Below are positions 1 through 55,739 of a stretch of 64,000 bases of DNA, in pieces. The stretch is taken from NCBI RefSeq assembly GCF_026151205.1, contig NC_087084.1, positions 8,415,394 through 8,479,393 on the forward strand. Direction: 5' to 3'. The notes beneath the pieces were generated by a model. That model searched no databases. It was not told the origin of the DNA and saw only the letters and a list, made by a program, of their open reading frames with translations. This stretch comes from Bolinopsis microptera (lineage: Eukaryota; Ctenophora; Tentaculata; Lobata; Bolinopsidae). Both the position numbers and the translations under genes were made by a program. Position 1 is the first letter of the stretch, and each line of letters begins with the position of its first letter.

Positions 1-540
1 TCATTCTCGGCCCGAATAACACTGAATTTAACCCTGTTCGCGCACACATATTCTCCGCACTCAATATCATAGTTCTGGTCTTCACCATCTCTTGTCCGCA
101 ACACACCACATAGAGTCTGCTTACCAGTGGAGGAGTTCACCACTAAGATGTTTACGTTTCCATCTATGCAGTTTTCTGCTATATACCCATCAAAAGTTGA
201 TTCCTGTGATGCCGTCACCGCTTTTATTGCAACCAATCCTGATGAAATTGTAACAGGGAAACTTATCGATCAATCATAATCATGAAGATTAAGTTCTGTT
301 ACGATGAAAAAAATCTTGCGCTGATTCTCTTTTCAACTTTGTATTGGATAAATAATAAGTTATAGTTGTTTTTTGAATGATCAAATCTTGAGGGAGCTAA
401 ATTCGACATAATATTTCTAACGGTGCAAACATTGATTGTCACGTCATAATATGTGTAGTATGTACTAAATAGACTCTATTACCAGTGTCAGCGATGCAGA
501 AGAGGCTCACAAGTGCTGAAAGTACCCACTTTATATCCAT
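1..540 (-). CDS. Secreted protein, signal peptide plus lectin-like domain (partial, runs off left end)
   Basis: Two exons are visible on the minus strand. Exon 1 (540-483) starts with ATG and encodes 19 residues, MDIKWVLSALVSLFCIADT, a typical cleavable signal peptide, ending at a GT donor in phase 1. Exon 2 begins at 238 after a CAG acceptor, in matching phase 1, and stays open to the window edge (79 codons). Its residues (GLVAIKAVTASQES, then ENCIDGN, and near the edge ANRVKFSVIRAEN) have the look of a galactose-binding-like fold of the fucolectin or F5/8 type, but this rests on a weak pattern and not on a diagnostic motif. The gene lies head-to-tail with the secreted Ig/sushi gene at 1498-5025 and shares its design of a short signal exon followed by phase-1 domain exons. 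The product should enter the secretory pathway; the rest of the gene is outside the window. Confidence 0.6.
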
Positions 541-1429
541 TCTGCTTTAACTTACTGAGTAATTATCAAGACGAGATCATGCTGTAGATGTTTCTGAATT
601 ATTTTTGCCAAAACGAATTCAAGTTAGATAATTTCAAAACTAGAAGTAAATAATTGATCGCGCCAGGTGGAAAAGTAAAAACAATATTATTCTCAAGATA
701 CAAAATTGCTAGTTGATCGGTTTAATAAAAAGGTATAAAACTTCTGCTTTTTTAGTCGAAACTTAAGATGCATTTACATGACCATAGCCATGACATCCAG
801 ACACACTAACAAGATTAGAGACTTATACAATTAATGAACTTCAAACTCTTAACGAAATAATCCACAGAGCACAAACTAACCTGATATATTATTCCTGGAT
901 TAATTTCTGGTTGGCGCTCCGTTATCCTGGTAACCTTGGTAACCTTGCGCATTTAATGCACATGGCTGTCCGGTCTGCCTCCACGAGGGTCATTTCCTTA
1001 TTTAATTAATAATTAGGATCTCTGCTAGATCATCTTCACTGGTAATAACACGTGTTTTCCTTCTAAATCCATTTATTGGGGAATATTATAACAGCTATAA
1101 TGTTTTGTTCGACGTTTCCTAAATTAACAGTGGCGTGAATAATTGCACCAATTATATCGGAGTAACTCAATTATCCTTGCTTTCTAGTGAGGACTAAGAA
1201 ATTTTAAACGATTCTTTTAGGGGACGTCCATTAAACTGGGTGTGAATTATGCGAAGAGAAAGACTACTGCTGCTGAAAGTTTTGTGAATATCAAAAACTA
1301 GGTGGATGATTTTCATATAATGCAGAGACATTATTTCACAAACAACAAGTCCCTATTACATGTTGTTTGAAAAATTATGCCACTGATTTTAAAACAAACG
1401 GATGTAACTTAACATACTTCTCAGTACAG

Positions 1430-1435
1430 TTTATT
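1430..1435 (-). terminator. Poly(A) signal AATAAA of the Ig/sushi gene
   Basis: AATAAA on the minus strand, 63 nt beyond the TAG at 1498. It supports the sushi exon being the last exon instead of splicing on at the GGTGGGT that follows the fourth sushi cysteine. Confidence 0.6.
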
Positions 1436-1497
1436 ATCTCAATCTTCTAAACTTTAACATCAATTGATAATACTAGTAGTATTATACAATTACATAT

Positions 1498-4400
1498 CTA
1501 TAATACAGTTCTATAACACCCACCTAAATTATAGAGACAACCTGGTTGTTCATTAAAGAAGTATCGAGTATCCCCCACACACGTGACACTATTATCACCA
1601 CGTGGAGAGTAGGCCAGATCACATGACAGCGGTATCACGGTACTCTGCTCCACTGGGAACACGTGGTCTGTAGTCACGTGATACCAGGATTCTGGTAGTC
1701 CACTGCACTTGATACTATCTGAAGGTGTTGGATTTGTTATGCCTTATTTTGCAATATTGTGTTTTATTCATCGTATATTTTGAGAGATTTTTATAATTTA
1801 CTCTTCGTTTAAATAGCGGACATGTAAAATTGAACTTTACAAGGAGCCTGCGCCTGACCATAGGTGCAGATTTCGTTTTGAGGTGAACTTTTAAGTTCCC
1901 GAGAAATTTTCTTAAGTTTGCTTTTTTTTCCTCCTCGGGCACATTCGTAACCTACGGGCCAGGTAAACCTAAACTACATATTGACCGTTATGTACGTCGG
2001 TATCTGTTGAGGAGCCAAATCATCTGAAAAGCCCTTAGCCTATATTTTGCTCAGGCACGTAGCCAGGATTTTTCTTGGGGGGGGGGGGGCTGTCGGCGAA
2101 CGAAGCTGCAAGCTGTGGCAGGGGTCTGGGGGCGCGGCCTCCAGCGGGGTCCAGGTAAGGGGCGGACCACATTGGCGGGGGCTAGGGGGGCACAGTCCCC
2201 CGGAAAAATTTTGCGAAATAGGGTGTTTTAGGCTAAATTGAAAGTTTAATGAATTTACAAAAATGTATGGTTTGGCATAAACATTGCCTACAATCCTGAC
2301 CTGAGTAATTTACCCCTTTGAGACTTAATTTTTGGGTTGAAAATTAAGTTTATCGAGAGGAAGTGAAAAATCTCTGGTTCAAATTTGGATTTGAAGCCAT
2401 GTTTAATTTTTTTTCCGGAAAAAATTTATGTTTGCTTTTAATTTTTATGGTGCCGACGGCACCTGAAATCGACGAAATCTGCAGGGGTGTGCGCCTCTGC
2501 AGTCTGCACAAAGAGCCTCGGGTACACTGGGTTTAAAAAAAGGTTGACTAATGTTATAATTTACAACTTTGATAGTCCTCTCTTATCAAATGAATGTTTG
2601 CGTTTAAAAACATACCATCAATGTTAAGATTAACAATGGTATCAAAGTGGTAGGAATCTGGAAACGACCCGGAAGTGACTCTGCAAGTGTAGGCAGTATC
2701 TTCTTCCACAAGAGTTTCGTCCACAGTTAGAGTTGATGTCTGCGTTCCTGCAGAGTGGCTTCCTTGGAGAGGGGTGAACTTAATATTGTCTGAAACTGGT
2801 CCTGTACTTGTTAGCCAGGTCACTGTTGCTGTTTCTGTTATACCAGTGATAACACACGATACTGTTGTAGTAGAGCCTTTCATTACTTCTTTATTCACTG
2901 ATTTGACATCTGAAGTAATTTTTGGTATTAATGAATAGCCACAATTTTACAATCTACAACACTCAGATGATATACAATTTTCATTGATTTGATACAAATT
3001 GATTTCTGGCAGTGAGACAGAAATTCGTAATGAAATCCAAAACTGCATTGCAAAATGATTGTCAGCATACCATAAACGTTTAGATTGACGGTGGTATCTG
3101 AGTGGCTTGAATCGGATTCTGATCCGGAAGTGACTCTGCAAGTGTATGCAGTATCATCGTTCACAAGAGTTCCGTCTACAGTTAAAGTTGATATCTGTGT
3201 ACTTTCAGAGAAAGTTCCTTGGACAGGGGTGAACTTTTCAGCTGGAACCGGTCCTGTACTAGTTCGCCAGGTCACTGTTGCTGTATCTGTTATGCCAGTG
3301 ATAACACAGGATATTGTTGTAACAGAGCCTCTCTTGACTTCTTTGTTCACTGACTCGATGTGCTCTGAAGTATGTCTTAAGTGAAATAATTTTATGATTG
3401 ACATGAAATGTTTTTTATCTCATTAAATGATCTGATGTTGAAAATGCTGATGCTTTCTGATCAAACTTGAGTACGAACAAGATAAAACTGGAAAAATAGA
3501 AGTCCCGTTACAACGTCACAGTTAATAGAAGATCTTGTAAAATTTATTTTACGATAGTTATCCGTAGTTATAGGTATATCAAAAATGTCATTAAAAAGAC
3601 GAATTTTAGTCACATTTACCTATTTGGTATCTGTAATGGCTAGACACCGTATCGGGTTTATTTGCTTTAAACCTTAGGCCTGTCAAGGCATTTCTTAAAG
3701 TGCAACGTAATTCATCAGTATCCTTATAAACCCAGGTTACTTCAAGGACATCATCAAACCATACTTGTAGCTGGGTAGAAGTCTTCAGGAACGTCAGAAC
3801 TCCAGCTCTCTGAAAGAATCCCTCAGTTCCGTTTCCTTCAAACTGGTAGTGGTTATCACAATTAGCTGCATCAATTTTAACTGTTGTAAACGTGAACCAT
3901 GAGATACCGGCCATAAACCACCTGATGTCATTACTACTATCTATTTTATTGTTCATTTGTATCTGGAACTTCTTTCCCTCCACTATTTCCGTAATGTAGA
4001 CACTTTTATCGTCAGGAACTGGCACCCACTCACTGTACTGGGATTCTGAAACAGGAAATTGGTTTATGGTTATTTTTCGTTCTTAATTCTTAAAAAGTCT
4101 GGTTATAGAAGACATATTATGATATTCCTGAACTCGACGTAGATAAAGCCTTTTCCCCCGCTTTCATAATTGAAGGACGAACTAAACTTCTATGCTCTGC
4201 ACTCTGCAGTCTGCATGACGCAAAGATATCACCTTGTTTGGGAGGAAAGTGGTGTAGTGGTGAAAAAGTTGAGCAGGACTAAACTGAGCAACACTCACCT
4301 TTCCATTTGAATCCGATTTTCAAGTAACATCTCCATCCCATCTTCTGGATATTATCAAAGTTGTTATCGCTAAACGTTGCATCTATAAACTTGATATTGC

Positions 4401-5025
4401 CAGACGTAACTAGGTTAGACCACTGTGGAAACAATTCCGAACACTGGTTTACGTTGTTGGTTCGGTAGGCCCTCTCTGCAGTCATGATTGCGTCATTCAG
4501 CAAGTCTATTTTAATGTGTGTTGGTAGCCTACCTGCCTCTGCTATCTTCAGGAACGTATTGTACTGTTTGCAACGGACTTTCTCCGTATCGTCTCCTACC
4601 TGCAGCTTTTCCACGGTTTTGGTTATTTTGCCCCCTTTGATTTTATACGCATCCTCAACATTCCCAAGTATTCCATTGTTTGTTGTGCTGTCGCTGTGAA
4701 ACTGAATGAGGATCCGTATCACAAATTCCCCAGGCAGATCAGCTACTTCATTCAATGGATTCTGTTTTTCAGTTTCGAATTTTAATTCGATAACTTCTCT
4801 TTTTGGATCAAATGACTTTCTCTGAGTCCACCCTGTAACTTCTGTCCAATCGTCTGAAGTTTTAAAGGAATGTCAATGTCGCAGTTATGTTAAAAGAATA
4901 AACACCTAAAGTAAATTGAACTTCCTTATATTAACAGAAACATTGTTTAGAAATTTCAAAATACCTAGTGCAATTGAGAAATTTGTCAGCAGCAGGATAC
5001 AAAGTAGGAATTTTAACGTCATCAT
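1498..5025 (-). CDS. Secreted Ig-Ig-sushi protein with two unrecognised N-terminal domains
   Basis: Six exons join in phase 1 without a break: 5025-4965, 4853-4299, 4045-3620, 3364-3071, 2909-2616 and 1718-1498, giving 616 residues. Exon 1 is a signal peptide (MMTLKFLLCILLLTNFSIAL). Exon 2 (185 codons) and exon 3 (142 codons) encode cysteine- and tryptophan-containing domains I do not recognise; exon 3 ends with VWFDDVLEVTWVYKD. Exons 4 and 5 are both 98 codons and encode Ig-like domains with the ISC...W...DDTAYTCRV pattern (ISCVITGIT, TVTW, AYTCRVTSG). Exon 6 is sushi/CCP-like with four cysteines (IKCSG, LSCDL, VTCVG, QPGC) and then reads nine residues to a TAG at 1498. No membrane segment is seen, so a secreted recognition or adhesion protein is likely. 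An AATAAA lies 63 nt past the stop. A TATA-like ATAAAAAG lies about 45 nt before the ATG. Function is inferred only from domains. Confidence 0.8.
2052..2230. mobile_element. GC-rich transposon end inside an intron (fragment)
   Basis: A GC-rich block with a long G run begins CAGGCACGTAGCCAGGATT, a sequence of the kind seen at ends of hAT-like non-autonomous elements. It sits in the last intron (1719-2615) of the Ig/sushi gene. I could not find a matching inverted end or target duplication, so this is one end or a degraded copy. Confidence 0.3.
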
Positions 5026-5099: not shown

Positions 5100-6320
5100 C
5101 GTATTATTAATTGAAAGATGTACTACACGGTTTTACCACCAAACGATTAAAAAACAAGAGATCCTCCGATTAAAATAAGTTCAATGGAACGTATAGTAAG
5201 AGAAAAGAAAGAGAAACGTAAAGCAACATTTGAATCGGAAATAAAAACAATGCTCAGCGAACTGACTAGTTTGTCAATTATAGCTAACTGGCAGCAGGCG
5301 TAGCTGTGTAGCTATCATTAACGGGGACTGAAATCTGCGTAACTTAAAACTGAATGGCAGCAAAAACCGAATGGCAACTGAATCTATACAAATTACAAAT
5401 TACAAATTACAAACAAATTGTGCAGTAAAATTAGATTAAAACACGTGAGTATGAAAATAAAACAGCCGAGCTTCAAATTCTTCAAGAAATAAATCATCGA
5501 CTGGACTCAGCTGGGATATAAATACGACGAGGATTAATTACCTTTTTCTCAAAGACACCTGTAAACCACTCCTGGGCTCCGTTACCATGGTACCATAGCG
5601 CATATGGCTGATTAATAATCCTTCCCTGTCAACGTGGCCTAGATAAACTCTTAATTAAACCAGTGCAGGGCAACTACTGCCCCCCCCCCCCCCCCCCCCC
5701 CCAACTACTACAGATCATTATTAGTCACCACGTACTGTTACTCCGTTAATCATTAAAACAGAGTCCTGGGTCGAGAATATCATTACCTGCTCTTAACAGA
5801 TATTAATTACAATAAATATCAGGCTCATAAGTTTCAGCAAGTGCACGCTCCTAAATTACTCTGACACTCAAGTTTATTGTAACATACAATCAGTGATAAT
5901 ACGTCATGATAATAGTGGGAAAATAATTAATTTATATAGTGTTAAATTTTGTAGAGTGTTATCGACAGATTAATCCTCAATGAATACTGCACGTGCATAG
6001 AGAACTTCCAGATTCAGTTAAACATGAACTGATCTACTTAAATATTTTACTGAAACCATGTTAACTGAAAAATCTATAAATTTGGGTTGCTACTTACTTG
6101 AACGCTTACAAAAAAGCTCAATAGCAACTATTGTAAGCCGTGATCGGACAGGGGATATGGTCTGTAGTACGAGATTGTCCATTAAATTATTATACCAGTA
6201 CTGTATAGTAAGGTTCTAAGAAAGATCAGATTTTGTAAAGTTGTGTAAGCCGTGATCAATTGAGATGAATTTTAGGTAATATTGTGTAATATGAAGGTAG
6301 TATAGTGATTATAATAAGGT
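5100..6320. other. Intergenic, no gene seen
   Basis: AT-rich sequence with no open frame that looks coding on either strand. It contains a short AAATTACA repeat near 5395-5415 and a run of about 20 C at 5683-5702, where an assembly length error is likely. Confidence 0.5.
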
Positions 6321-9830: not shown

Positions 9831-10143
9831 TCTCCCTCAGGACCTACAATCTAATCACACTCCCTCAGGACCTACAATCTAATCCCTCTCCCTCATGACC
9901 TACAATCTAATCTCTCTCCCTCATGACCTACAATCTAATCTCTCTCCCTCAGGACCTACAATCTAATCTCTATCTCCCTCAGGACCTACAATCTAATCTC
10001 TCTCTCCCTCAGGACCTACAATCTAATCTCTCTCTCCCTCAGGACCTACAATCTAATCTCTCTCTCCCTCAGGACCTACAATCTAATCTCTCTCTCCCTC
10101 AGGACCTACAATCTAATCTCTCTCTCCCTCAGGACCTACAATC
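9830..10143 (+). repeat. Minisatellite (~28-30 bp, about 11 copies) carrying splice-acceptor-like units
   Basis: Tandem copies of a unit reading roughly CTCTCTCCCTCAG then GACCTACAATCTAAT. Every unit has a pyrimidine tract plus CAG, that is, a plausible 3' splice site, and the last one leads straight into a zinc-finger exon. In one plus-strand frame the array is open and would encode repeats of LPQDLQSNLS, but the intron-like composition makes that less likely. Confidence 0.85.
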
Positions 10144-13100
10144 TCACAAGTCCGGTAAGAAGCACGCTGCACGTGTCATAGACCTGGAACATACGCCGCA
10201 CATTCCTCCGCAGCAGTTTTGTCACGTGTGTAACATGTGGTTCCCTAATGCAGACCATTTGGAGCAGCATAAGAATCTGGTTCTCCACAAAAAGGTACGG
10301 AATGTAGGAATGCACATTTTTCTGTTTCTGGTATGTGTTTTGTGATATTTTGTAAAAGATACGGTATCTTAGTCTTGTACTTCAGTGTACACTGTACATT
10401 CTGGAGTATACATTCTGTACTGGAAGTAGAATCGTGATCTCACGAACAAGTTTCAGACCAGTTATTGTATTTGCCTTTGTTACTCTCAGTTCTGTGTTGT
10501 TTACCGTCATGCGCTAGTTACTTTCGTCTTGAACATTACTGATAATTGGAAAAAAAATAAACTCATACTTTGATGGTACTTTGTCAAACTCAATTAAACA
10601 AAAATTCACAATTAAAATGTGCATCACCAATAAACTGGTAAGTAAAACCTTCTACTCACATCACAAAACTCACATTTAATTTTTAAATGTCGATTCTCCA
10701 CTACTAACACGTGACTAACACGTGACTCTCCACTACTAACACGTGACTAACACGTGGTTCTCCACTACTATCACGTGACTAACACGTGACTCTCCACTAC
10801 TAACACGTGACTAACACGTGACTCTCCACTACTATCACGTGACTAACACGTGGTTCCCCAGACGTTGGGAGTGTTTATAAAGTTCGGGATACCAATACCG
10901 GGCATTGCATACCCTGTAAACCCTAAACGTAACATGACGATAGTGATCGACGATACACCTACTCCCGCTAAACCTAAAGCTAATGTACAGTTCGCAATTC
11001 CTAAAGCCCTTCCTAAGAAAAAGTCTGGTCAGGCTTCTCGAGCTATTGTTATTCCTGACGAGGTATTTGTAAGCCAATTAGCAATTAATTACTTAATTAC
11101 CAGTGCTTTTGCAATTTGCATCGTCCTATTCTTATTCCAGTGTTTTTTCGAATGAAATACTACAAATTTAAAGTTTTTCAAGATTGGTAGTCAGTCCACA
11201 CCCTGGCTCCATAATATGAAGGACTTGTTTTGATTCTAAATAAACAGCTCGAATGACGAATACCCATGTTTTCCCCTCAGGCAGCAGCTCAAGATAAGGA
11301 AGGAGCCGCGTTATCTAACTTACAGCAATACTCCTCCCCCTCCTCTGAGAGCGACACAACTCCCGAACAATCCGCACCAGGTAACTTGAATATGTGGAAC
11401 TTGTATAGTGTCTAGTCTGTACTTTGTGGAGTGTTTATTCTGTTATGCAGAAATCGTGCACATTTGATTTAGTGTGTGAATTTTTCTACTCTTATAGTTC
11501 CCATCTAATTGATTTATCATCATGACCTCGCCATTAATTTAATTAAAAATTACTTTTTTAACATTCACATTTTCTAGAACCGCCTCCTCCTGGAACTTCG
11601 GAAGAGAAGAAAATACTCTCACTATCAGGTACTTGTTATACTCACCCGGCACTCAATAATTCATTCTTGTGCCCAATCACTCAGCTTCTAATGAATTTTT
11701 GGTGATGAATATCTTTCATCGAACGAAACTTAAAATATAGCTTTAACCAGCTTAAAAAGTATGTTTGAGCTTTATTATATGTAAGTTTTTAGAAAAAGCA
11801 CGTGATGGATACTAATCACGTTATTCTTCAGAGCCTAGTCGGTAATTGTCTAACTGTCTAACTTAAATGATTTGTAAAACAATTGAATTGTACAGTTTTA
11901 CTGAGTTTTATTGTTGATTTAACTGCGTGTTTGGTTTATTGGATAATAGTATGATAATGTTAGCATATCAAAAGGATCGGGTTATTGTAAAGTTTGCTGA
12001 ATTTTAATTTGTGATACGTTTTCAAAGCCGATTAAATTGATCTTGAAGTTGACTTTATTATGGTTATAAGTCTCGGACTCTAGTATAATGTGTTTTATAT
12101 GGTGGATACCCAAAGAATGAAGGATTACGAGATTGGTGGCTGTGAAAAATATTCCTTTGCGCACAACAACCGTACGCCTTTCAAAGGATTAAGAAAAGAC
12201 ATGAGTCTCTGCCGTTTTTCAAAAGTGAGCTTCATTTTAGAAGAAAAGAAAACATTTTGAGCCGTCTTAAAGACAATATGTTATAAGACTCAAAGTTTTG
12301 TTATCAGACTCAGTTCATGGTTCAAGAGCATACTTCTGGCGTGACAATTAATGAATTCTGATTAAGATTATTTAATCTAAAAGTCAGGGTTCAGATAACG
12401 GAACAGAAATTGTAAACAGGTCTGAATTGTTTTTTACCTCGATTAAGATGATCTGATCATCTTTTATTAGCCAAATATGAAATTATTTTTAACTAGATGT
12501 TACAACTTTCAGGATATTATCTTGATACAATATTGTTATGATATTGATTTTTGTTTGCGTTTTATTTAAGTGTCCCATTTTCAACACAGTCTCTAATATC
12601 AAATTATATGCCAAAACCCTAAATTATCAAACATTCGAACGTCAGACAATAGCCAAAGTAATATACACAGATGATAATGCAATAAAAATGTTTACTAACT
12701 AAAGTAATTGTATTACCCGTAGTTTTTCACAGGGTCAAATAGAAGATCAAGTTCACAAGAACGACGGGAGAGAAGAAAGCGGAGGTTCCGTAGCGCGCGT
12801 TCCTCCTCAGGATCCTCCTCTGACAGTGCTGGTCCGTCAAGTACCTCTCGTCGTAGGAAGCATTCTTCATCATCACGCAAACGTTCCAAATCACCAAGGC
12901 GTAGACGACGCTCACGATCTCCACATCGTCGAAAAGGACGGTCCCTTGAGAATGATAAAGCCAAGAGTTCCAGAGAAGAAAGAGCATCTTCAAGCAAAGC
13001 AGTTGATAGGAAGGCAGATGAGAGAAGTGCTAATGCCGAAGGAGTTCGCTATGGATATTTCTTAAAGTCTGAAAAGTTTTCCATAAAGCCTGACAAGAAA

Positions 13101-16100
13101 TTAGTTGTTTATGAACCGATACAAGACCGAAAAGCCGATAATCCACCATCAAAAGATAACACAAAGGCAGAAGAAGAAGAGGATGAAGATATGGATAAGA
13201 AAGAATTGAAAACGATTAAAGGCGTAATACACATTATAAGTGATGATGAAACAGCCACAAAAGAAAAGCCCGAAGATTTAGTAAAGCCTTCAGACCCTGA
13301 AAAGAAGTTGGAAAATGAGGATTTCATCCCAGTTCCTCAGTGTGATGAAACCTTTGATTTTGAAGAAGTCAACATTGTTGATTTTGAGTTTGATGACGAG
13401 GTTATCGAAGAACCTGTCAATGATGAAACCGAAATGAATGTCCTGCCTTCGAAAAATGACAATACTAAAGAATTGGCTCCAATCAACTCCAGTCCTGTAG
13501 TTGATGAGACCTTGAGTGTGTCTGAGGCCATTTCTGAAACTATACCTGATAATAAACAGGAATGTGTACAAGAAGACATGTACGAATGTCTGACTCCTAC
13601 GGAATACATAGTTCAATCTCCTATCTCCATTCCGTTAAAAAGTAAAGATGTCCCATCCTCTTCAAAAGAGGGTGATAACGATAAATTGACAGAATCAGGA
13701 ACAGATATCAAATCAAGCACTACTCCCATAGTTGAGCCAGCCAACAATTTCGTAGATCAAGTTGTTCCTGAGGTTGCTGATGTTGTTCATGAAGATATTG
13801 GTTTCAAAGATATCGAAATTGAATCTCCTGAAATGCAGACAGCGGAGACATCGGAAAACAGTCCACCTGAAACCATTAGTGAGGTCACTAATGGGACAAT
13901 AGCTGCTATTGAAACTGTTGAGACGCCTCAAATTGAGCCAAAAGTGGAAAGTTCTGACCTATCCTTAGAGGAACCTTCTGATAGTGTCGTAGGTAACACC
14001 GAAATCCGTGAAGAAATAGTCATTAAAACTGATGATTCAAGTAAGACCAAAGACGAAGCTGCAAAAAGTGATGAACCTAAAGACGCAAATTCCACAGATC
14101 CTAATGAGAAACCAAAAGTAGAAAAAGAATTGACTGAGATGGAAGTAGAATCGACAATCGACATCCCGAAAACACGTGAACCTGTTCCAGCTAGCATTGT
14201 AGCTGAAGAATGTAGTCTTGCTGCAACAAAAGGGAGAAGAAGCAGTGCCAGGAATAAAACACCTGTTTTATGCTTAGTAAGACAAAGTGTTAGAACTAGG
14301 AGAGCTCTAGCTGGTTCCATTCCAAAAATCGATTTGACAATGGAAGATTCTAGCCCAAGTAATGAATCAGAAAACTTATCCGAACCGATTGTTCAAGACA
14401 GTGGCCGTGAAAAACAGTCTATCCCAGTCAGCCCATCCAGTGATGAAGTAAAGATTGTTTCTGAGCCCTGTGAAAGTGAAACTGCACAAATTGAGCCACC
14501 GAAAACTCGTGGGAGAAGAGGAAGAAGAGGTAGAGGCCGAGGAAGAGGTAGAGGTAGAGGAAGATGCGGAAATGTAAGTTCCCCTGTAGAATCAGCTTCA
14601 GATAACCTAATTGTACCTCAGCCAGCTGCTACTGATGTGGCCAGCGAACTTTCTATAATCAAAACAGATACTTCTCAATTTGCTGAAAGTAAACCATCTC
14701 CTACTGTAATTGAAACTACTAAGAGCATTCAAGTGGAGTCAGGAAATTCAGAGAAAGAGGTAACCGAACCAGTTTCCGTCAAAACAATTGGCCTTGTCCC
14801 GTCGAAAAATCTTGTTTTAGAGGCACAAGCTGAGTCGGTGCAGCATAAATTGGCCGAGGAGAAAAATACAGAAAGTACACAAGCCATCGGCAATGAAGAT
14901 CACTCTAAGATATCAGTCTTGGAGTCTGAGTCTAGCAAAGATTTAGAGATTGTTAGTACAATTTTGGAACCCCTTGAAACAACCACTGAAGAAATTAATG
15001 TTCATTCAACTGAAATAAATGAAGATGATGGTTTGGAGATAGATTTTTCTGTGAGCGACACTGAGAGAATGGTGATTGATTCAGATGTTGACAGCGAACC
15101 TGACAACAAGCCATCAATTTATGAAACTTTGTCAGATGAAGACGAGGGTTTAGAATTACATGATATTTACGAGGATCTATCTGACAGTAATATGGATGTA
15201 CCCATCGTTAACCCAGCGAAAAAAGAAGAAAGCAATGCACCATCAGAATCTCAACCATCTGTATCAGAAGAGGCTCCGAGGCCTCAACGAGTAAGTTTGA
15301 CCATTGCACCTCGGGCAAATGTAAAGAGACCGGCTGTGATTGTGGATAGTGACCTAGACAGTGTTGGAAGCAAAGTAGTCGTTCAGGGTTCCGTAAGACC
15401 CTTCACAGATCGCTCACCAGCAAATGATCCAATAAAACAACATACAGAAATACCTGCTATTGCTGAGCCATCAGTAGCTGATCAAAATGAACGAAAATCA
15501 AAATCAGACAGTAACAAACTTGATCAGTCTAGTATAGAGGAAACATTGATGGCTAGGCCGAAATTTGTGACATGGCCACCCACCTCAGCGGATGTGACAG
15601 TATCTCCACCCAAACCTTCCCAACCATCTCCTTCAAATATTTCAGCTCCACAACCTTCCAAGCCTACAAGTACAGTTCCCACGGCCAGTCTGCCTATTGA
15701 GCTCTCCAAATCACAGGTCATTGTCGCTGATTCAGACAAAGCTTCTACAGCTTCCAGCACTGAGAGAACCAAAGGACCAACTTCAAAACCGGCAACTAAA
15801 AAGCATGCCACTGTCGTTCAAACAAAACCCCTCTCCGTTTCCTCTAACGCTGCCACAACTTCATCAAGTTCTGTTCCTAAATCTGCTCCAAAAACCACTG
15901 TCACGACTATTTTGAAGAAGAAATTACCTGGCACAAAAGTTGTTCTCTTGAAGAGCCCCTCAAATTCAAGTAAAACTACCGTCAAGGAAAGTGCTAGTGG
16001 TCCTAGTAAAGCTAGCACTTCTCCCTCGGGCAAATCTCCCGCCAGAACCAAGGTGGCCAGCTCAGAAATGACATCCTCCACATCCAAAAGTCCTGTTGTA

Positions 16101-17209
16101 GCAGAGGAAGCTCCACACAAGAAAACAACAAAAGTGTTTAAAAGAAAGCCCATCACCGCCCCAGTGGTTACAACTCCGAAATTCCCTAAAATCATCCGGG
16201 GATCTGCACCCAGAGGAGCACATCGTGGTCGTGGTTTTGGTGCTGTGCCCAGCACTGACAGCCCCACAAGTACCCAACATGTGTTACTCCTTACCCGAGG
16301 TGGGAGAGGAAACAGAGGCACCAGAGGTATTGAAAGAGGCACTAGAGGTATTGAAAGAGGCACCAGAGGTATTGAAAGAGGCACCAGAGGTATTGGAAGA
16401 GGCACCAGAGGTATTGAAAGAGGCACTAGAGGTATTGGAAGAGGCACCAGAGGTATTGAAAGAGGCACCAGAGGCACCGTGAGAGGAGGTGGAGGTCGGG
16501 GGAGAGTGTTCGACAGGATGGGACCCCCACCACTCGCTCCTGTAAACACGATGCCGAGAACAGTTGTGGCTCCATCCAATCCTGTAACTTCCCGAACTGT
16601 GTCTGTTCACCCTGAACAGGCTATTCATCATGAACGCCCCATTCAATCAGGACGTATTATACAGCCTCATCATGCTCGCACTGTTCACCCTGATCGTCTT
16701 ATTCATCAAGAACGCAAGGTCCACTCAACAAGACAAGATCGCATCGTCCACTCTACGAATGAGGGCGGTTTTTCTGATCGTAAAGTGAGACAACCTCTGT
16801 TGAATAACCCCCAGAAGATGACCGTCACACTCGGCAGCCAGCAGAGGCAATCAGACACACTCGGCAGCCAACAACGGCAGTCTGGCAGCCAGCATAGGCC
16901 ATCTGGCAGACTTCCTTATATTCATGGTTAGCAATCTTTCTGATCGTTTGCTATACTTTGTTAAATTAAACTAATTTTATTCTGGATGTTCCAATGCAAG
17001 AAAATTACAATTTGCTCTTAACTTAAATATATTAATAAGTCCACAAATTCCTCAATAGCTGTAACCCAGGTCTAGAGATAAGAGATGGCCGGTATTACTG
17101 TGCAGTCTGCTACAACTACTTTGAAACACCATTCCTGGGAAGGAACCACGCCCAATCCACTGACCATAAGGACAATGTCCAGTACAGCTACGCCATGCAG
17201 TTTAAATAA
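10133..17209 (+). CDS. Large SR/RGG nuclear protein with terminal U1-like zinc fingers (5' end not found)
   Basis: Exons 10133-10294, 10862-11062, 11281-11380, 11578-11628, 12733-16926 and 17070-17209 join in frame for 1615 residues plus stop; the start exon was not found. The first and last exons each hold a C-x2-C-x12-H-x5-H finger (FCHVCNMWF, YYCAVCYNYF), the spacing of U1/matrin-type RNA-binding fingers. The 4.2-kb exon opens with an SR-rich segment (12733-12980), then a long acidic disordered region, an RG-rich stretch (14508-14570) and eight GTRGIER-type heptads (16318-16485). Short hydrophobic-acidic motifs such as VIHIISDDE, KIDLTMEDSS and AVIVDSDLDS resemble SUMO-interaction motifs. 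A nuclear RNA-processing or chromatin scaffold role is inferred. The paired fingers recall ZNF318-type proteins, but homology is not shown. AATAAA overlaps the stop (17205-17210). Confidence 0.75.
10694..10853 (+). repeat. 32-bp minisatellite of E-boxes at an intron 3' end
   Basis: Five tandem 32-bp units, TCTCCACTACTAACACGTGA-type, each with two CACGTG palindromes (ten in all). The array runs to within 10 bp of the acceptor of the exon starting at 10862. CACGTG is the canonical E-box bound by bHLH factors; whether these act as sites is unknown. Confidence 0.85.
16318..16485 (+). repeat. Coding 21-bp tandem repeat (GTRGIER heptads)
   Basis: Eight in-frame copies of a 21-bp unit inside the large exon encode GTRGIER/GTRGIGR, ending in GTRGTVR and a GGGGRGR tail. 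The near identity at the DNA level indicates recent expansion; RG spacing would suit arginine methylation or RNA contact. Confidence 0.85.
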
Positions 17210-23816: not shown

Positions 23817-25300
23817 TCACTCGGAAGGCCCCACAGTGAGTGTGCATTTATCCAGAGAGCAATATTCCACAATTGTGTTCCTAACCAAAGTGGTTACTCC
23901 TCCTCCTTTACCTGATTTGCGGATGTCACTATAGGATTTGTATCCTTTCAGGGAAACTTCGCATCCGGTTTCTTGGAGGCAGATTATATCATTTGGACTG
24001 ATGATTTTGACAAATTCGGGATCCTCAACTTTGTTTCCGAGCAAGCCATGAATGTTTGCAACATTCCAGGAAATTATACCGTTGACGATGTTCATCAGTC
24101 AGGTATAGAAGATGAGAGAGGCAAGAGGAGAGGAGGAAAGAAGAAGAGAACTCGGAAGACTTGGAGGAGCTGAGAATGAGAGACTGGGATTCAAGTACGG
24201 CCCCTGCTAAATGTACTATTGAGACTTGTCTTGAAGTTTCCCATGATTACTCTGATACCTCTGTCATTTAGATGAGGTTGATCTGGGACAAACAGATAGT
24301 CGTGTGGAATATCCGATCCCCCCGGGTAGAAGTTGTTGTTTCTGTTTTCTCTTGATCTCATCCAGAAATCAGCCTTTTCACTGTCATCTTTAAGATTTCT
24401 GATTGCCTCTGTGATGAGTCGACTATTCTTACCCCATTCCTCTCCAGGATGGTCGCGGAGAAAGGGGTGAGAGATGAATATTTTGCAGTGTTGTGAGGTC
24501 TGTCTAAGGATCTTTTCAGTTGACTTTATTAATGACCCCACCACAATATCAGCCTTGTTGCCTTCCAGGATGTCCCGAGTACCAAGGTGAATGTACACTG
24601 CATCTGGATTGAGGTTTGAGATCTCTTCTACTGTTCGTTCGAGGCACGAGTCAAGTTCTTTCAAACTTGGCCTGTATATTACAGAGACATTGTACCTCTT
24701 TGGAAACTCGTCAGGTTTAAAGCTTCGCATGGTCGAGTCACAGAGGAGAACAATTTTCTTTTGGCGCTGTACTGGGTTACTCGCTCTTTTGGATCTCCCT
24801 GATCTGCGTTCTTAGCAGTACCCCAAAGGAAAGATCGTCGAGTATTTTCGTCCCATCCAGAGTCCCAGAGCAGCATTTTTTCGTTGTCGGTAGAGAGCAT
24901 ATAGTTTGCAGGAATAGGGAGCGTTTCCAGATTAGAAAGGTTTCCAGATTAGAAGGGTTTCTCGGGTTAGAAAGGTGTCTGTTTGCTGCTTTTCTGCTTC
25001 TCTGTACCATTCTGTTGAGGGGTGATAGCTGGCAGCTCTAGATTCGTAACCCAATCCACCAACTGATTCAGATAAGAGGTATTTCGTCGGTCGATCTCCA
25101 CCAGAAGCTTTTCTTTTCAAGTTCTGTTTGCTGACGTGGACGGTCGTTTCAGCATGGTGGGCAGGGTGAGTGCGGTCAGGAGTAGGAGTGATCAGTTGTT
25201 TCTCCACGGTAGAATCGTGCTCTGCAACCCTTTCGGAAATCCGAATATTTCCAGTGGGTGGTATCGTCTCTTTATTTGTCGAAGACGTATCGGAAGCCAT
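23817..25300 (-). pseudogene. Broken LINE: ORF1 with SGNH esterase plus start of AP endonuclease
   Basis: On the minus strand, a frame from 25300 begins ORF1 (MASDTSSTNKETIPP) and is broken by at least two frameshifts. The readable C-terminal part (about 24765-24191) is an SGNH/GDSL-type hydrolase domain: block I KIVLLCDSTMRSF, block III-like IHLGTRDILEG and the final D-x-x-x-H-like region near PDQPHLNDRG. ORF1 proteins of CR1/L2-type LINEs often carry such an esterase. After a 95-nt gap, ORF2 begins at 24095 with an AP-endonuclease N-terminus (IISWNVANIHGL, then IICLQETG), which stops at 23817. Downstream to about 23350 only fragments remain, with no reverse transcriptase. Dead copy. Confidence 0.7.
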
Positions 25301-28395: not shown

Positions 28396-30534
28396 TTATA
28401 TAACATGTCGGTTACATTCATACATCTTATGAGAAACGGCTGCACGACTTCCAGGCCCCCTATTATTAGGGGTCAGATCATACTTACTTACTTGATACTT
28501 GATAAGGTCTCCTCGATCATTCGAGTGGCCTGCACCAAGGAATTGCCGCTTATGTCGTATAATCTCTCTCCAGTGCTTGCGATTTCCTGCCAACTCTCGG
28601 ACCTTATCAAATACAATGTCTGGATCTCCTGTAAATGTTACTGCGTCTTCCAGGACACAGGTTCGCCAATTCTTTCTTGGCCGCCCACGTGATCTTCGGC
28701 CGTGAGCAGGTGTCCAGTCAAGTAGATACTTTGGTAGCCTGGTGTCCGGCATTCTAGAAACATGTCCAAACCAGCGAAGACGGTTGGCACTGATGTTGGT
28801 TATAACCGGGTTTATTCTTGCCCGCTCCAACACTTGAACATTGCTCGTCCGGTGGAACCATTTAATTCGAAGGATTCTCCACAAACAGTTTTGATGGAAA
28901 ACTTCGAAGCGATGTATTTGCTTTGAAGTAGTGTTCCAGACTTCGCTTCCATAAAGTAATATTGTTAGAACCGCTGCAACATATATCCGTATTTTGGTGT
29001 TAGTTTGGATATTGCGATTCTTCCAAATATTACCGAGCTGATTGAATGCTCCTGAGGCTTTCTGGATCCGTGCAGACAAGTCCCGGTCAATAGTCCCATC
29101 ACTTGATATAATCGACACAAGGGGGAAGTTGCTGACTTGCTGGATAGCCGTGTCTCCCACTGTAATGTCCACCGTTGATGCTTCAGTATACGGCCTCTGT
29201 GATGTATTCTTGCCGATGGCCATAACCTCTGTTTTCTTCGCATTGATTCTGAGGCCAGCCTGAGCCGCATACTTGCATAAAAGATCAGTCGTCTCCTGGA
29301 GACCGTCCTTGGTGTTGTCCATGATAGCCAAATCATCTGCATAGTTAGTATCCAAGACGACTGTATTCTGATCAAAGCTGGTGGTAGCTCTCTGCAGCAC
29401 TGCCCCGTGTGACAACACTTTGTTATCCTCAGCCCGCTGCGCAGGCAGGTTGATGCAAACATTAAAGATAGGTGGACCCTGAATATCCCCCTGCCCAGAA
29501 CCAGATGTAACGTCAAACCAATCTGAGAGCTCACCATTATGTCTGACAGAGCTGACGGTGCCACAAAAGAATGCTTGCATTATGCGAATGTATTTACAAG
29601 GCAAGCCATAATGACTGAAAGCTTTCCAGATAAACTCCCGATTAAGTGAATCGAATGCAGCTTTAAAGTCAACAAAATTTATGTACAGGGGGAGGTTAAA
29701 CTCAATGCTGTTGTGAATAATAGTACGAAGCGAATAAATCTGATCAATGCAAGACCTTTTTTTCCTGAACCCGCACTGATTCTCTCGGAGCAGTTCTTCA
29801 AGCCCCGCATTCATCCGTCGCAACACTATTATCTGATATAGTTTTGATGCCGTGGAGCGTAGGGTTATGCCCCTGTAGCTGTTGTTCGAGCAGAATGATG
29901 TATCACCCTTTTTCGGGACAATAACAATGATACCCTTAACCCAATCCTCTGGCACATTCTCCGTCTCCCAAACACGTGCAAACAGTTTCTCAAGCCTGTC
30001 TAAAAGACCAGGAGCCCCATACTTCAGCTGTTCGTTGGAAATTTCATCAATTCCAGAGCTCTTGTGATTCTTCAGACTCTTTAAAGCCTCAGAGATCTCT
30101 GTTCTGCTAGGGGGTAAATCACTATCACTCAGATACGGAAAACATGGTGCGACGTCTAGACTGTCTAGGTCTGAAAGGTCCACGTCTCCTATCTGCGGGT
30201 TTAGTAGTTCAGCGAAGTGCTCACCCCATCGTTTTCGTTGAGCAGCGGGGTCAGAAATCAACTTCTCGGTTTTATCTCTGACAGCAGTTGACTTCCGACT
30301 CTTCTTGCCTGACAAGGACTTGATCATCTGCCAGACCTCCCTCTGCTGACCGTGTGAAGAAGCTGTTTCCAGATCGGCTGCAACCCGTAAAGCCCAGTTC
30401 TCATCGTCCTTCTTGCAGCTCTTCTTAACACGCTTATTAGCAAGAGAATACTCAGATCTATTGAATCCATCACTTGGGCATTTCTGCTTGACCTTACTCC
30501 GCTCCGAGATGAGATCCTTTGTCTCTTGTGACAA
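28396..30534 (-). CDS. LINE reverse transcriptase (truncated ORF2, no endonuclease)
   Basis: A single 712-codon frame. The N-terminal linker (residues 1-130) leads into RT palm and finger blocks: VKGIIVIVPKKGD, SYRGITLRSTASKLYQ, NQCGFRKKRSCIDQI, the catalytic YINFVDFKAAFDSL, GSGQGDIQGPPIF and the YADD box (TNYADDLAIMDNT). A thumb and a C-terminal region (RLRWFGHVSRMPDTRLP, then GRPRKNW) follow. That C-terminal signature is frequent in RTE-like LINEs of animals; clade not certain. No AP endonuclease precedes it because the copy is 5'-truncated at about 30543. The last ~29 codons read past the element's 3' end (28482) into host DNA, so the native stop is missing. Unable to move autonomously; it could still be transcribed from outside. 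Confidence 0.85.
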   Translation of the reverse strand: MSQETKDLISERSKVKQKCPSDGFNRSEYSLANKRVKKSCKKDDENWALRVAADLETASSHGQQREVWQMIKSLSGKKSRKSTAVRDKTEKLISDPAAQRKRWGEHFAELLNPQIGDVDLSDLDSLDVAPCFPYLSDSDLPPSRTEISEALKSLKNHKSSGIDEISNEQLKYGAPGLLDRLEKLFARVWETENVPEDWVKGIIVIVPKKGDTSFCSNNSYRGITLRSTASKLYQIIVLRRMNAGLEELLRENQCGFRKKRSCIDQIYSLRTIIHNSIEFNLPLYINFVDFKAAFDSLNREFIWKAFSHYGLPCKYIRIMQAFFCGTVSSVRHNGELSDWFDVTSGSGQGDIQGPPIFNVCINLPAQRAEDNKVLSHGAVLQRATTSFDQNTVVLDTNYADDLAIMDNTKDGLQETTDLLCKYAAQAGLRINAKKTEVMAIGKNTSQRPYTEASTVDITVGDTAIQQVSNFPLVSIISSDGTIDRDLSARIQKASGAFNQLGNIWKNRNIQTNTKIRIYVAAVLTILLYGSEVWNTTSKQIHRFEVFHQNCLWRILRIKWFHRTSNVQVLERARINPVITNISANRLRWFGHVSRMPDTRLPKYLLDWTPAHGRRSRGRPRKNWRTCVLEDAVTFTGDPDIVFDKVRELAGNRKHWREIIRHKRQFLGAGHSNDRGDLIKYQVSKYDLTPNNRGPGSRAAVSHKMYECNRHVI

Positions 30535-30543
30535 GTGCTGCTT
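28482..30543 (-). mobile_element. 5'-truncated non-LTR retrotransposon with 10-bp target duplication
   Basis: The direct repeat GTCAGATCAT lies at 28472-28481 and again at 30544-30553, immediately outside a LINE reverse-transcriptase segment. The 3' end (28482 side) has a short tail of AAGT/TCAAGT repeats; the 5' end starts within the linker before the reverse transcriptase, so the endonuclease was lost at insertion. The long intact frame shows the copy is young. It has landed inside an inverted-repeat sequence that probably is one end of the MULE relic. Confidence 0.75.
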
Positions 30544-30660
30544 GTCAGATCATTATATAACGTATAATTAGTGATGTGCCGTATAATTAGTGATGTGATC
30601 CACCAGCTACGATTTACAGAACATGTGAACTCTACCCTATATCTAGCCCAGTTTTACCCC

Positions 30661-52050: not shown

Positions 52051-52512
52051 CGGAGTTCTAAAATGTACTTCGTCATATATCACAAATTCCTGTGCAAATG
52101 TTTTAATTTAAAAATTGTTTACTGTTAAAATCCTACAATTCTATAATAATTATCCAGAATAAATATAATATGTGGGAAGATAAAAAACTAAAATTAAAAG
52201 CGACTGCCGACCCCAAAATACGTCCCTAGTATTTTGAGGTCTTTAGCCAGGAATTTTTAAATCTTAGATTCTATAATATAGGTGTGGATTCTGGTGGGGA
52301 GGCGAATCACATTTGTCTTACACGTGACAAATGACAATGCACTTAGGCTTTGATTAGTTAATACATTGTACATTGTACATTGTACATTGTACATTGTACA
52401 TTGTACATTGTACTAGAAGCTGACTCGTAAGTTCCTGTGCCGCGTCAGAAAACAAATATGGTTCACCTCCCCACTTGTATCCAGAGATCTACTTAAACTC
52501 AAAAAAGGGTGT

Positions 52513-55500
52513 TCACTCACTGAAAATAGAGAGTTTCTGAGAGCAGGTCACTGTAGACCCCTTCTTCTCCATCTCCACAGTGTAGTCAAACATTCCTGCT
52601 TCCCGTTACCTTCTCTGTCTGGTGTAGTAACTTCAGATCCACTTCCTCACAGTCACTATTGCAGGTCACGTGATTGAGTTTTCCCACCTTCCAGGTTATC
52701 GTGTCCCAGGTTGTTGCTTTGTTGAGTTCCGCTGTGAGTGTGGCTGGTCTTCCTACTTTTTGGGAGGCAGGTTTGCAGTCCAGTGTTACTTCTGAAATTT
52801 AACAGTTTGTTGTTTTCTGATTTCAATTAAATCTGAACAATTATCCAATGAGTATTTCCTTAACTCCACGACACTCGCTAATGTTAATCTTACTTTTACA
52901 GTTTACACATTCTGACCTCTACTTTGAACTTATAATTGAACCAATTAGAGCGAGGTTTAATACCCTATTAAGCTATTATCGAAGTAATCGTCATATTTAC
53001 CGTATTCGCAGTGATCAACAGATTTAGACCCAGCTACTGATGTTTTGTAGTAGGGACATTGTTCACATCCACTGTCAGTCATGTATTTTCCAGCCGTACA
53101 GGGAGCTGAAAGTATGTCTTGAATATTTTTGGTTTAAGCTTTAGTTTACATAATATTTGTTGTAATGAATATTAGCAGTATTTACTGGATCTAGTAAAAC
53201 TGATATTACGTTACAAGCATTTTAAGCGACTTAACGCGAGTAAAAACAGGCGAATTTGTAATCTTCTTGTTATAAAATTTGTGCTAAAATAAAATACGAT
53301 CTTCAGTTACAATGTTCAAGGAAATTTCAAACTTGAAAGGAATTCTATTTTATCAAAATGTTTTTTACCGTATCTGCAGTCATCTTCTGATGTAGACCCA
53401 GCCGCTGATATTTTATCTTCTGGACAATCAGTACAAGAAGCAGCTTCGGCACCACTGTACTGATTGTCTCCGCATTGTTGACATCCATTGTCAGTCATGT
53501 AGTATCCAGCAGTACAGGGAACTGAAAGAATTTGTGCGTACAAATAATATTTCGAATCCCCGAATATTTTGGTTCAATAGAACAAACTTGAGGTAAACAT
53601 GAATATATCTATCGCGTAACAGAGAACAGGTTTCGATTAAATTTTTCTATTACCGTATGTGCAATCAGCCTCTGATTTAGACCCATCTTTTGATGTTTTG
53701 TCTGCTCCACATTTTACACATCCACTGGTAGTCATGTAGTCTCCAGCAGTACAGGAAACTGAAAGTATTTGCGCGTTTTATATCTCGAATCCCCGAAATC
53801 TTTGTTGTTTCAGAACAAACTTGGGGTAACATTAATATATCTATCTCGTAACAGAGAACAGGTTTCGATTAAGTTTTTTGGTACCATATGTGCAAGCATC
53901 CTCTGATGTAGAACCAGCTGGCGATGTTTTGCTATCGGGACATCCAGTACAAGAGTCAATTCCAACTGCTCCGTCGTTGCTGTAACTGTTAGCTCCGCAT
54001 TGTTGACATTCACTGTCAGTCATGTACTTTCCAGCGGTACAAGCTGAAAGAATGAGTTATTATAATATAGGGGGAGACCACAAACATTGTGTTACACATT
54101 CTTTTCAACTTTCGATCATCTTAACATCAAAAGTTTCATACCCAAACAATCAGACTGTTCCGTGCCTTCCCCTGCTGCTACAGTTTTACCGTTAGGACAT
54201 GGGCGACAATCTGTTTTGAAGGAATCACCGCTATAACCTCCGCTACTATATGTTCCTTTTCTACAGGGTTTACAACCTTGGCCTTCAGATGATAGGTAGA
54301 ATCCACCATCACATGGGACTGCAATATTGAAAATATGTAAGTTATAGAAGTTCTAGAAATGAAGTTCTATTAGTATTAAGACGATTATACCAATACTTCA
54401 TTTCAAACTTCATTTCTAGTTAGTGGTAACCAAAACTAAAGTTAACTTTCATCTGAAGTCAAATGAAGTGAATACTAATAACTAACTTCTAGCCATCTTT
54501 AAATAAATAAAAGTTTTAAAAACCATGCCCTATCAAGACACTTATTGATAACTTGAAACATTTGGCCTAGTATAACAGAGTTCGGGTATTTTTCTAACGT
54601 TTTACCTCGCATTTTATCCAAGATCTTACCACTCAAAATCTCAACTTAACCACATACGTGACAACTAATAGTGTTAATCTGAAATCAGTACTAAGATAAA
54701 GAAGTCATTTATCTTTGTGTTTTGTCACCTTTATATGCACAAAGATAGTTGTCTTGCCAGTCATAGACATTGCTCTGTGCACTGTCATATATCTGTATGC
54801 ACTCCTTGCCTGTTTATTTTGCCCTTTGCACTCCACTTAAATCCGTATGGAGAATCTTTGGGCATGCAGAGCCAGTTGTCTTTCCATTTATCTAACCTTG
54901 CTTCATTAACCGGGATGCAGTGTTTTCTGTCTCAGGCCCCGGGTTGTTCTTTCGTCTTATTTGAAAGGTTTGTTCATGTCATGTTCACATAGTTGCCAGT
55001 TGGTATGTTTAGAATAAAGTCGAGCTTAATTTTAATTAAAATATCAAGATATGTTTAGTTTTCAGATAATATGCATGATATAATATATTTTATTTAATAG
55101 GTATTATATATTATTTAAGGTTTTAAATTGTCTAAAATCCTATGTTGTCTCATTAACTCAGCAGCAATAAGAGTAGTAATTACATAGTCCACATTTAATG
55201 CAGCGTCATTAATTATATCATAGTGATGGGCTTCAACCTAAAGCATTTCAACAGAAGGTAAATATAAATAATAAAACATACAGCAACTTACTATTCGTCC
55301 ATGTCAACAGTTTTTCCCCGTTGTTCTGGTTCCAGCACAAGTAGTTGTCTTCCCAACTGTCAGGTGCACTTTCTCTTAACCAGACACATTGGTCATCATT
55401 ATATCCCCTTCTTGCGGAATTCGACATGAACCACTTAAAATCTTCTGGCCACGCCGGGAGAGGGGACCCTATAGATAACAATTATAATTTTGACTGATCA

Positions 55501-55739
55501 CAACTTGTAAGTCAGAAGATTACATTGTACATTATGTCACTCATCAAACAAGATACCGGCTCATGATAATTTATTGGATCATTTCATATAATTTCTAAAA
55601 GTCCGTATCATAAAGTTGACATTATGAAAGTTTATGAATGTTTATATAACACAACATTATTTAACATACCTGTTGCTGTTGAAAGAGGAGTCCACCACAA
55701 AAAGCAGAGTCCTCCGAATAGTATTTCAAGTAATGTCAT
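52513..55739 (-). CDS. Secreted cysteine-rich repeat protein (GCC2/ephrin-receptor-like) with frameshifted last domain
   Basis: Eight phase-1 exons on the minus strand: 55739-55670, 55468-55292, 54318-54142, 54043-53885, 53758-53654, 53521-53369, 53105-53001 and 52791-52513. Exon 1 is a signal peptide (MTLLEILFGGLCFLWWTPLS). Exon 2 (WFMSNSARRGYNDDQCVWLR, then DNYLCWNQN) is unrecognised. Exons 3-7 each encode a cysteine-rich unit of the GCC2/ephrin-receptor-like type (CTAGYYMTDNGCQQC, then DKISAAGSTSEDDC). Exon 8 starts EVTLDCKPASQKVGRPATLT, Ig-like, but meets TGA at 52588-52586; one base of frameshift would continue it (FDYTVEMEKKGSTVTC) to a stop at 52513. A TATATAA lies about 30 bp before the ATG. 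A secreted recognition protein is inferred. Confidence 0.75.

Follow-up and report, generated by a model that had tools for sequence, protein, structure and literature searches.

Gene structure at the locus

A stretch of 64,000 nucleotides (nt) from the ctenophore Bolinopsis microptera (NC_087084.1, positions 8,415,394 to 8,479,393 of the forward strand; hereafter, the window) carries, close to its first position, two neighboring genes on the minus strand: gene B and, downstream of it, gene A, which is cut by the window edge. Gene B consists of a signal-peptide-like exon, two domain exons called here D1 and D2, two immunoglobulin (Ig) exons, Ig1 and Ig2, and a sushi-like exon. A third gene with a signal-like exon lies approximately 47 kilobases (kb) from gene B, and zinc-finger reading frames and a reverse transcriptase are situated in between. 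All coordinates are listed in Table 1. An initial annotation of this DNA had suggested that the three genes might be members of a variable family of secreted recognition proteins.

Each of the five domain exons of gene B is bordered by AG (acceptor) and GT (donor) splice sites and is a multiple of three nt long; the gene has six junctions, all of them in phase 1. If each phase had the probability of one third, six random junctions would all be in phase 1 with the probability 0.0014. According to excerpts of PMC8001218, however, phase-1 introns are in excess near the signal-peptide cleavage sites of animal extracellular proteins, and the succession of a phase-1 signal exon and phase 1-1 exons is general among such proteins; for animal genes of this type, phase 1 is what one expects. 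The exons of gene B and the visible portion of gene A showed no frame breaks.

The exon phases were computed, while the signal peptides of gene A, gene B and the third gene were assigned by eye; with the signal nature understood in this sense, the signal exon ends in phase 1 in all three genes. The initial annotation had described signal exons of about 60 nt ending in phase 1, followed exclusively by phase 1-1 exons. The lengths (61 nt in gene B and 58 nt in gene A) and the phase agree with this description, the signal nature resting on inspection by eye, and all five later exons of gene B are of the phase 1-1 type, whereas in gene A the domain exon is cut and its 3' phase is beyond the window. 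The described domain order, two unrecognized domains followed by Ig, Ig and sushi, holds for both Ig domains, which pass the Pfam thresholds, and less firmly for the sushi part, which has four cysteines but stays below the cut-off. Overall, the gene anatomy reported earlier is largely real.

The Ig exon pair, the sushi-like exon and the 3' end of gene B

Ig1 matches the Pfam family I-set (expectation value, E, 1.3e-7; 32 bits vs the cut-off of 23.7) and Ig2 matches C1-set (E 8.6e-8; 32.9 bits vs the cut-off of 21); the sushi exon scores 15.1 bits vs the cut-off of 20.7. When the Ig1-Ig2-sushi segment was compared with PDB, the best 60 of 512 matches included Dscam, hemolin and antibody chains.

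The Ig exon pair is a local duplicate within gene B: the two proteins are 72% identical, and the similarity at the DNA level (2611-2917 vs 3066-3372) barely extends past the exon borders. For this pair, the rate of non-synonymous substitutions (dN) is 0.185 and the rate of synonymous ones (dS) is 0.371, yielding a dN/dS ratio of about 0.5, that is, the amino acids have changed without an overall excess. When the pair was divided into seven blocks of 14 codons, the proportion of non-synonymous changes (pN) exceeded that of synonymous ones (pS) in one block (8.5 vs 1.5 changes), too few changes for a claim of selection.

At the 3' side of the sushi exon there is a possible donor, GTGGGT. If the exon is read through, a stop codon is reached at 1498-1500, and an AATAAA signal is found at 1435 on the minus strand, about 63 nt past the stop. 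With the donor unused, this stop and the AATAAA would yield a soluble protein.

Two N-terminal exons without recognized domains

The proposed frame of D1 has no stops over 185 codons, compared to 4-15 stops in the other five frames, and that of D2 has none over 142 codons, compared to 5-24. A codon score, for which three long reading frames from the window (two of them with zinc-finger matches) served as the training set, was 0.092 for D1, the clear best of six frames (next 0.025), and 0.033 for D2, the best by a small margin (next 0.027). In 1000 intergenic segments the mean score was -0.13 (standard deviation, sd, 0.10); D1 and D2 are about 2.2 and 1.6 sd above this mean, respectively, but the intergenic maximum of 0.14 exceeds both. 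The proposed frame scored highest in seven of nine exons tested, but not in the third gene's exons 2 and 8. By itself, the codon score gives modest support; taken together, the long open frames, the splice sites and the matching phases make a convincing case for D1 and D2 as predicted exons.

The description of these two exons as unrecognized was borne out, as neither D1 nor D2 had an above-threshold match in Pfam, PHROGs, NCBIfam or the PDB sequences, and NCBIfam yielded zero matches up to E 1 for all four queries, D1 and D2 included. Several weak candidates were dismissed as chance matches: Pfam TIG_SUH for D2 (E 0.15, under the cut-off), two PHROGs matches (E 0.046 and 0.16) and a PDB sequence match (best E 0.055) for D1, and a PDB sequence match for D2 (best E 0.83). 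No relatives of D1 or of D2 were confirmed in viral contigs or prokaryote genomes; these collections do not contain animal genomes as such, and hence the lack of relatives says little about animals.

Structure prediction, proposed along with the initial annotation as a check of these domains, produced models of a quality too low for any fold. The mean pLDDT of the single-sequence AlphaFold2 models was 39.0 for D1 and 30.7 for D2, with the low-confidence D1 model consisting mainly of strands. A Foldseek search with the D1 model gave no matches at E <=0.001 among 441 at E <=10, the best having E 0.075 and a TM-score of 0.21. Such single-sequence models are too poor for assignment, and we claim no fold for either domain.

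Gene A and the sequences upstream of genes A and B

The initial annotation had called the domain exon of gene A lectin-like. This is unconfirmed, since the visible part of exon 2, whose domain is cut, has no lectin match in Pfam, PHROGs, NCBIfam or the PDB sequences. A PHROGs match to a family of unknown function (E 0.013) and a PDB match (best E 1) were dismissed as chance.

A likeness between the sequences upstream of genes A and B was initially spotted by eye, and the stretch to be analyzed was picked after the match had been seen. When a 136-nt piece of the sequence upstream of gene A was compared with 1014 tiles of the window, the highest score, 56.5, went to a same-strand tile upstream of gene B (mean over tiles 23.3, sd 4.7, best elsewhere 42.5); reciprocally, the best match of the gene B stretch was upstream of gene A (60.5; best elsewhere 47.0). 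The alignment needs many gaps; of its 102 aligned columns, 88 are identical. None of 1000 shuffled sequences reached 56.5, and the full-stretch alignment was better than those of 200 out of 200 and 1000 out of 1000 shuffles. In a natural control, five of 300 random pieces clear of the query did as well as this full-stretch alignment. As an unselected control, the whole upstream stretches of 960 and 975 nt were compared with other tiles of the window: out of 244 and 243 such tiles in the two comparisons, respectively, equally good ones numbered 3 and 0 under loose gap costs, 4 and 0 under middling gap costs, 18 and 14 under strict gap costs, and 36 and 25 under a fourth setting. Short BLAST matches between the two upstream stretches were weak (best E 0.005). 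The sequence upstream of the third gene showed no similarity to either stretch, 124 and 81 of 200 shuffles being equally good.

The likeness passes some controls and fails others; it is borderline and serves as a lead only. It may reflect a tandem duplication of some age, a regulatory element common to the two genes, by which they could be co-regulated, an interspersed repeat, or chance.

Both stretches contain a symmetric X-box-like pattern. The site at 930-943 is the sole exact match in the window and is located 390 nt upstream of the gene A start codon; the site in the matching gene B stretch (5581-5594) has one mismatch. With at most one mismatch, there are 19 such sites on both strands of the window vs 12.05 expected, a number reached in four of 100 shuffles. 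These sites are relevant for a reading in which the genes encode components of extracellular matrix, mucus or gland secretion with no role in recognition and with an upstream element of the RFX (X-box) type. The exact site upstream of gene A and the near match upstream of gene B are in line with this reading, as is the use of class 1-1 modules in extracellular proteins generally. Nevertheless, it appears quite improbable, as X-box-like sites are common in the window and Rfx4 is linked to gland cells by a single excerpt, on Nematostella larvae (PMC12464818).

The third gene

The third gene was initially described as identical in design. This holds for the signal-like exon and six phase 1-1 exons, but not for the Ig-like exon 8, which is apparently frameshifted: six of the seven exons after the signal exon are flanked by phase 1 and have a length divisible by three, exon 8 being the miss. 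The five cysteine-rich exons match Ephrin_rec_like (Pfam, E 6.9e-10). In the Ig-like exon the frame changes after about two thirds of the length, and no Pfam Ig match was found for its two pieces searched separately; the change may stem from decay of the exon, a very small intron or an error in the assembly.

Exon 2 of this gene matched a 5,898-residue PDB chain with E 0.0022, which was ascribed to chance, as no single stretch passes; it had no confirmed relatives in viral contigs. Between exons 2 and 3, at 54712-54931 on the minus strand, we observed a frame-broken likeness to exon 2 (its two reading frames gave E 0.0015 and 0.0084). At 53468-53931 there is a tandem exon duplication, in which the repeat includes intron sequence as well as cysteine-rich exons (82% over 234 nt). 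Downstream of the last recognized exon, at 52136-52225 on the minus strand, there is a hydrophobic stretch with the mean hydropathy of 1.83 over 19 residues; this may represent a membrane exon.

One might suppose that some of the gene models are non-functional, the third gene being a decaying copy or the frameshifts being assembly errors. The Ig-like exon that runs on in another frame and the frame-broken likeness between exons 2 and 3 point in this direction; on the other hand, single-base slips may be sequencing errors, and the exons of gene B and of the visible gene A are unbroken. We regard this explanation as highly improbable.

Other features of the window

The GC content of the window, in 4-kb steps, varies between 34% and 45% (mean 38.5% over 16 steps), and the observed-to-expected ratio of CpG is 0.72. 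With its intron-containing genes and GC content of 34-45%, this is animal-type DNA. No Rfam family reached its threshold in the window.

Of 166 listed reading frames of at least 65 amino acids (aa) in the window, 30 were scanned with Pfam, and other genes with domains may be missed. Beside gene B (5.1-12.2 kb) the scan covered 11 of 12 listed frames of this length, the sole match being a zinc finger (9911-10342). A 717-aa frame on the minus strand (28399-30549) matches RVT_1, a reverse transcriptase (Pfam, E 1e-24), and is probably a retroelement. A frame of 1402 aa is open on the plus strand at 12723-16928; it begins with a serine/arginine-rich part and matches no Pfam family at E 0.01. An open frame on the minus strand at 24194-24811 has a GDSL-lipase match below the cut-off (23.7 vs 32.9 bits). 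A tandem array of a 12-nt unit (67 copies, 98% matches) occupies 48883-49694, where several frames are open on both strands.

Table 1. Positions of genes, exons and other features in the window.
Feature	Position	Strand	Details
Gene B, whole model	5025-1498	minus	signal-like exon, D1, D2, Ig, Ig, sushi-like
Gene B exon 1, signal-peptide-like	4965..5025	minus	61 nt, ends in phase 1; hydrophobic start by eye
Gene B exon 2, orphan domain D1	4299..4853	minus	555 nt, 185 aa, phase 1-1
Gene B exon 3, orphan domain D2	3620..4045	minus	426 nt, 142 aa, phase 1-1
Gene B exon 4, Ig domain 1 (Ig1)	3071..3364	minus	294 nt, phase 1-1; Pfam I-set
Gene B exon 5, Ig domain 2 (Ig2)	2616..2909	minus	294 nt, phase 1-1; Pfam C1-set
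Gene B exon 6, sushi/CCP-like domain	1524..1718	minus	195 nt; four cysteines; below Pfam cut-off
Gene A exon 1, signal-peptide-like	483..540	minus	58 nt, ends in phase 1; signal by eye
Gene A exon 2, cut by window edge	1..238	minus	domain without assignment
Stretch upstream of gene A	840..968	minus	exact symmetric X-box-like match at 930-943
Stretch upstream of gene B	5472..5610	minus	X-box-like site, one mismatch, 5581-5594
Third gene	53001..55739	minus	signal-like exon plus six phase 1-1 exons
Third gene signal-like exon	55670-55739	minus	ends in phase 1; signal by eye
Third gene exon 2, domain exon	55292-55468	minus	phase 1-1
Third gene cysteine-rich exons	54142-54318, 53885-54043, 53654-53758, 53369-53521, 53001-53105	minus	phase 1-1
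Third gene exon 8, Ig-like by eye	52520..52791	minus	apparently frameshifted
Zinc-finger reading frames	9911-10342, 40262-41818, 43580-45133		Pfam

Recognition family or ordinary modular protein

The initial annotation had inferred a variable recognition family from the clustering of signal exons with phase 1-1 domain exons. The data do not sustain this step. As this exon design is general in animal extracellular proteins, the phase 1-1 layout is expected and does not imply a recognition family; in addition, the visible gene parts share no exons, and the third gene is distant and apparently partly broken. Specifically, the visible parts of the three genes have no homologous domain exon or signal exon in common. 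D1, D2, the sushi exon and the exons of gene A have no second copy among 2029 reading frames of at least 20 aa in the window, and the Ig exons of gene B have no further copy in the window beyond their own pair, gene A being cut after its first domain exon. Searches of the window with the signal exons gave only weak matches (best E 0.062). The Ig pair of gene B and the cysteine-rich repeats of the third gene each lie within a single gene, which indicates duplication in place rather than exchange between genes. The recognition-cluster reading is weak, and nothing in these data demonstrates immune or allorecognition variability.

In its specific form, this reading would make genes A and B the edge of a tandem, polymorphic cluster of secreted recognition genes, in which the promoter and the signal exon are kept and the domain exons are exchanged. 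We consider it unlikely. Several observations fit it: the two genes are same-strand neighbors with signal-like exons alike in length and phase, their upstream stretches are reciprocal best matches at a score that no shuffle attained, and no relatives of D1 or D2 turned up in the searched collections. However, the upstream stretch was picked after the likeness had been seen, its whole-stretch control is mixed and some random pieces score equally well; the visible gene parts lack a homologous exon, and the substitution rates of the Ig exons give no overall sign of diversifying selection. The still stronger proposition, that D1 and D2 represent new lineage-specific families and that genes A and B are part of a tandem, exon-exchanging, germline-variable recognition system not yet described, is very doubtful.

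We favor the explanation, with the probability of roughly two thirds (0.68), that gene B is an ordinary class 1-1 modular animal gene whose product is probably secreted and likely is an extracellular binding or adhesion protein; both secretion and the binding function are properties that we infer. Under this explanation, the product would be a soluble multi-domain binding or adhesion protein, in which the Ig and CCP-like domains might form a stalk or a contact surface, whereas D1 and D2 might be ligand-contacting or assembly modules, ligand contact being suggested by their N-terminal position. Gene A would be a separate neighbor of the same general design, maybe with an old upstream block in common with gene B. 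In favor of this explanation are the six phase-1 junctions with their AG/GT splice sites, the general occurrence of such modules in animal extracellular proteins, the Ig domains above the Pfam cut-offs, the stop available after the sushi exon, the lack of relatives of D1, D2, the sushi exon and the gene A exons elsewhere in the window, and the finding of only a zinc finger in the Pfam scan on the other side of gene B.

Several points weigh against this explanation. The sushi exon also has a good donor, and the transcript may continue past it. Three hydrophobic stretches occur in the minus-strand frames of 480-1530, and one of them, at 1197-1352, is inside the possible 3' part of gene B, although without a convincing exon; given the donor and these stretches, a membrane-anchored form of gene B may exist. 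The possible common stretch upstream of genes A and B would fit a tandem family, and a larger cluster, of which the window would show the edge, may continue below coordinate 1.

An interpretation in terms of a recognition family goes beyond the anatomy, and what is of interest here is the pair of orphan domains and the borderline upstream likeness. As it stands, gene B is an ordinary case of how animal secreted proteins are built, with two unassigned domains that deserve a structure. If genes below coordinate 1 had the upstream stretch and exchanged domain exons, the locus would become a directly testable germline recognition cluster.

Comparison with known systems

The published systems are described here as in excerpts of the cited papers. 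Gene B resembles class 1-1 extracellular proteins (PMC8001218) in its phase-1 signal exon, its phase-1-flanked domain exons and its Ig and CCP-like modules; it differs in including two modules, D1 and D2, without an above-threshold library domain.

The mollusc FREPs combine one or two Ig domains with a fibrinogen-related domain (PMC12074976), and the amphioxus VCBPs, which are variable between individuals, combine Ig-like domains with chitin-binding regions (PMC13428168). Gene B is similar to both, as excerpted, in combining Ig domains with non-Ig domains. It differs from them in that its unassigned domains come first and in that its five domain exons have no fibrinogen-related or chitin-binding match in Pfam at E up to 10.

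The fester gene of Botryllus has 11 exons, including one sushi exon and exons 3 and 4 without a detected conserved domain; its product has three predicted transmembrane segments, and it is diversified through alternative splicing (PMC3549757). A single sushi-like exon and extracellular exons without a detected domain are common to gene B and to fester as outlined there, but gene B differs in including Ig domains and in lacking a clear membrane exon. Alr1 and Alr2 of Hydractinia are single-pass membrane Ig proteins, and the Alr-like genes of the allorecognition complex are clustered, with low overall mutual identity (PMC11067881). Gene B shares Ig-superfamily domains with Alr1 and Alr2, as characterized in this excerpt, but has no convincing membrane exon, only the hydrophobic stretch mentioned above, and its sushi exon can end in a stop. 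As far as can be seen, gene B works like an ordinary modular secreted protein.

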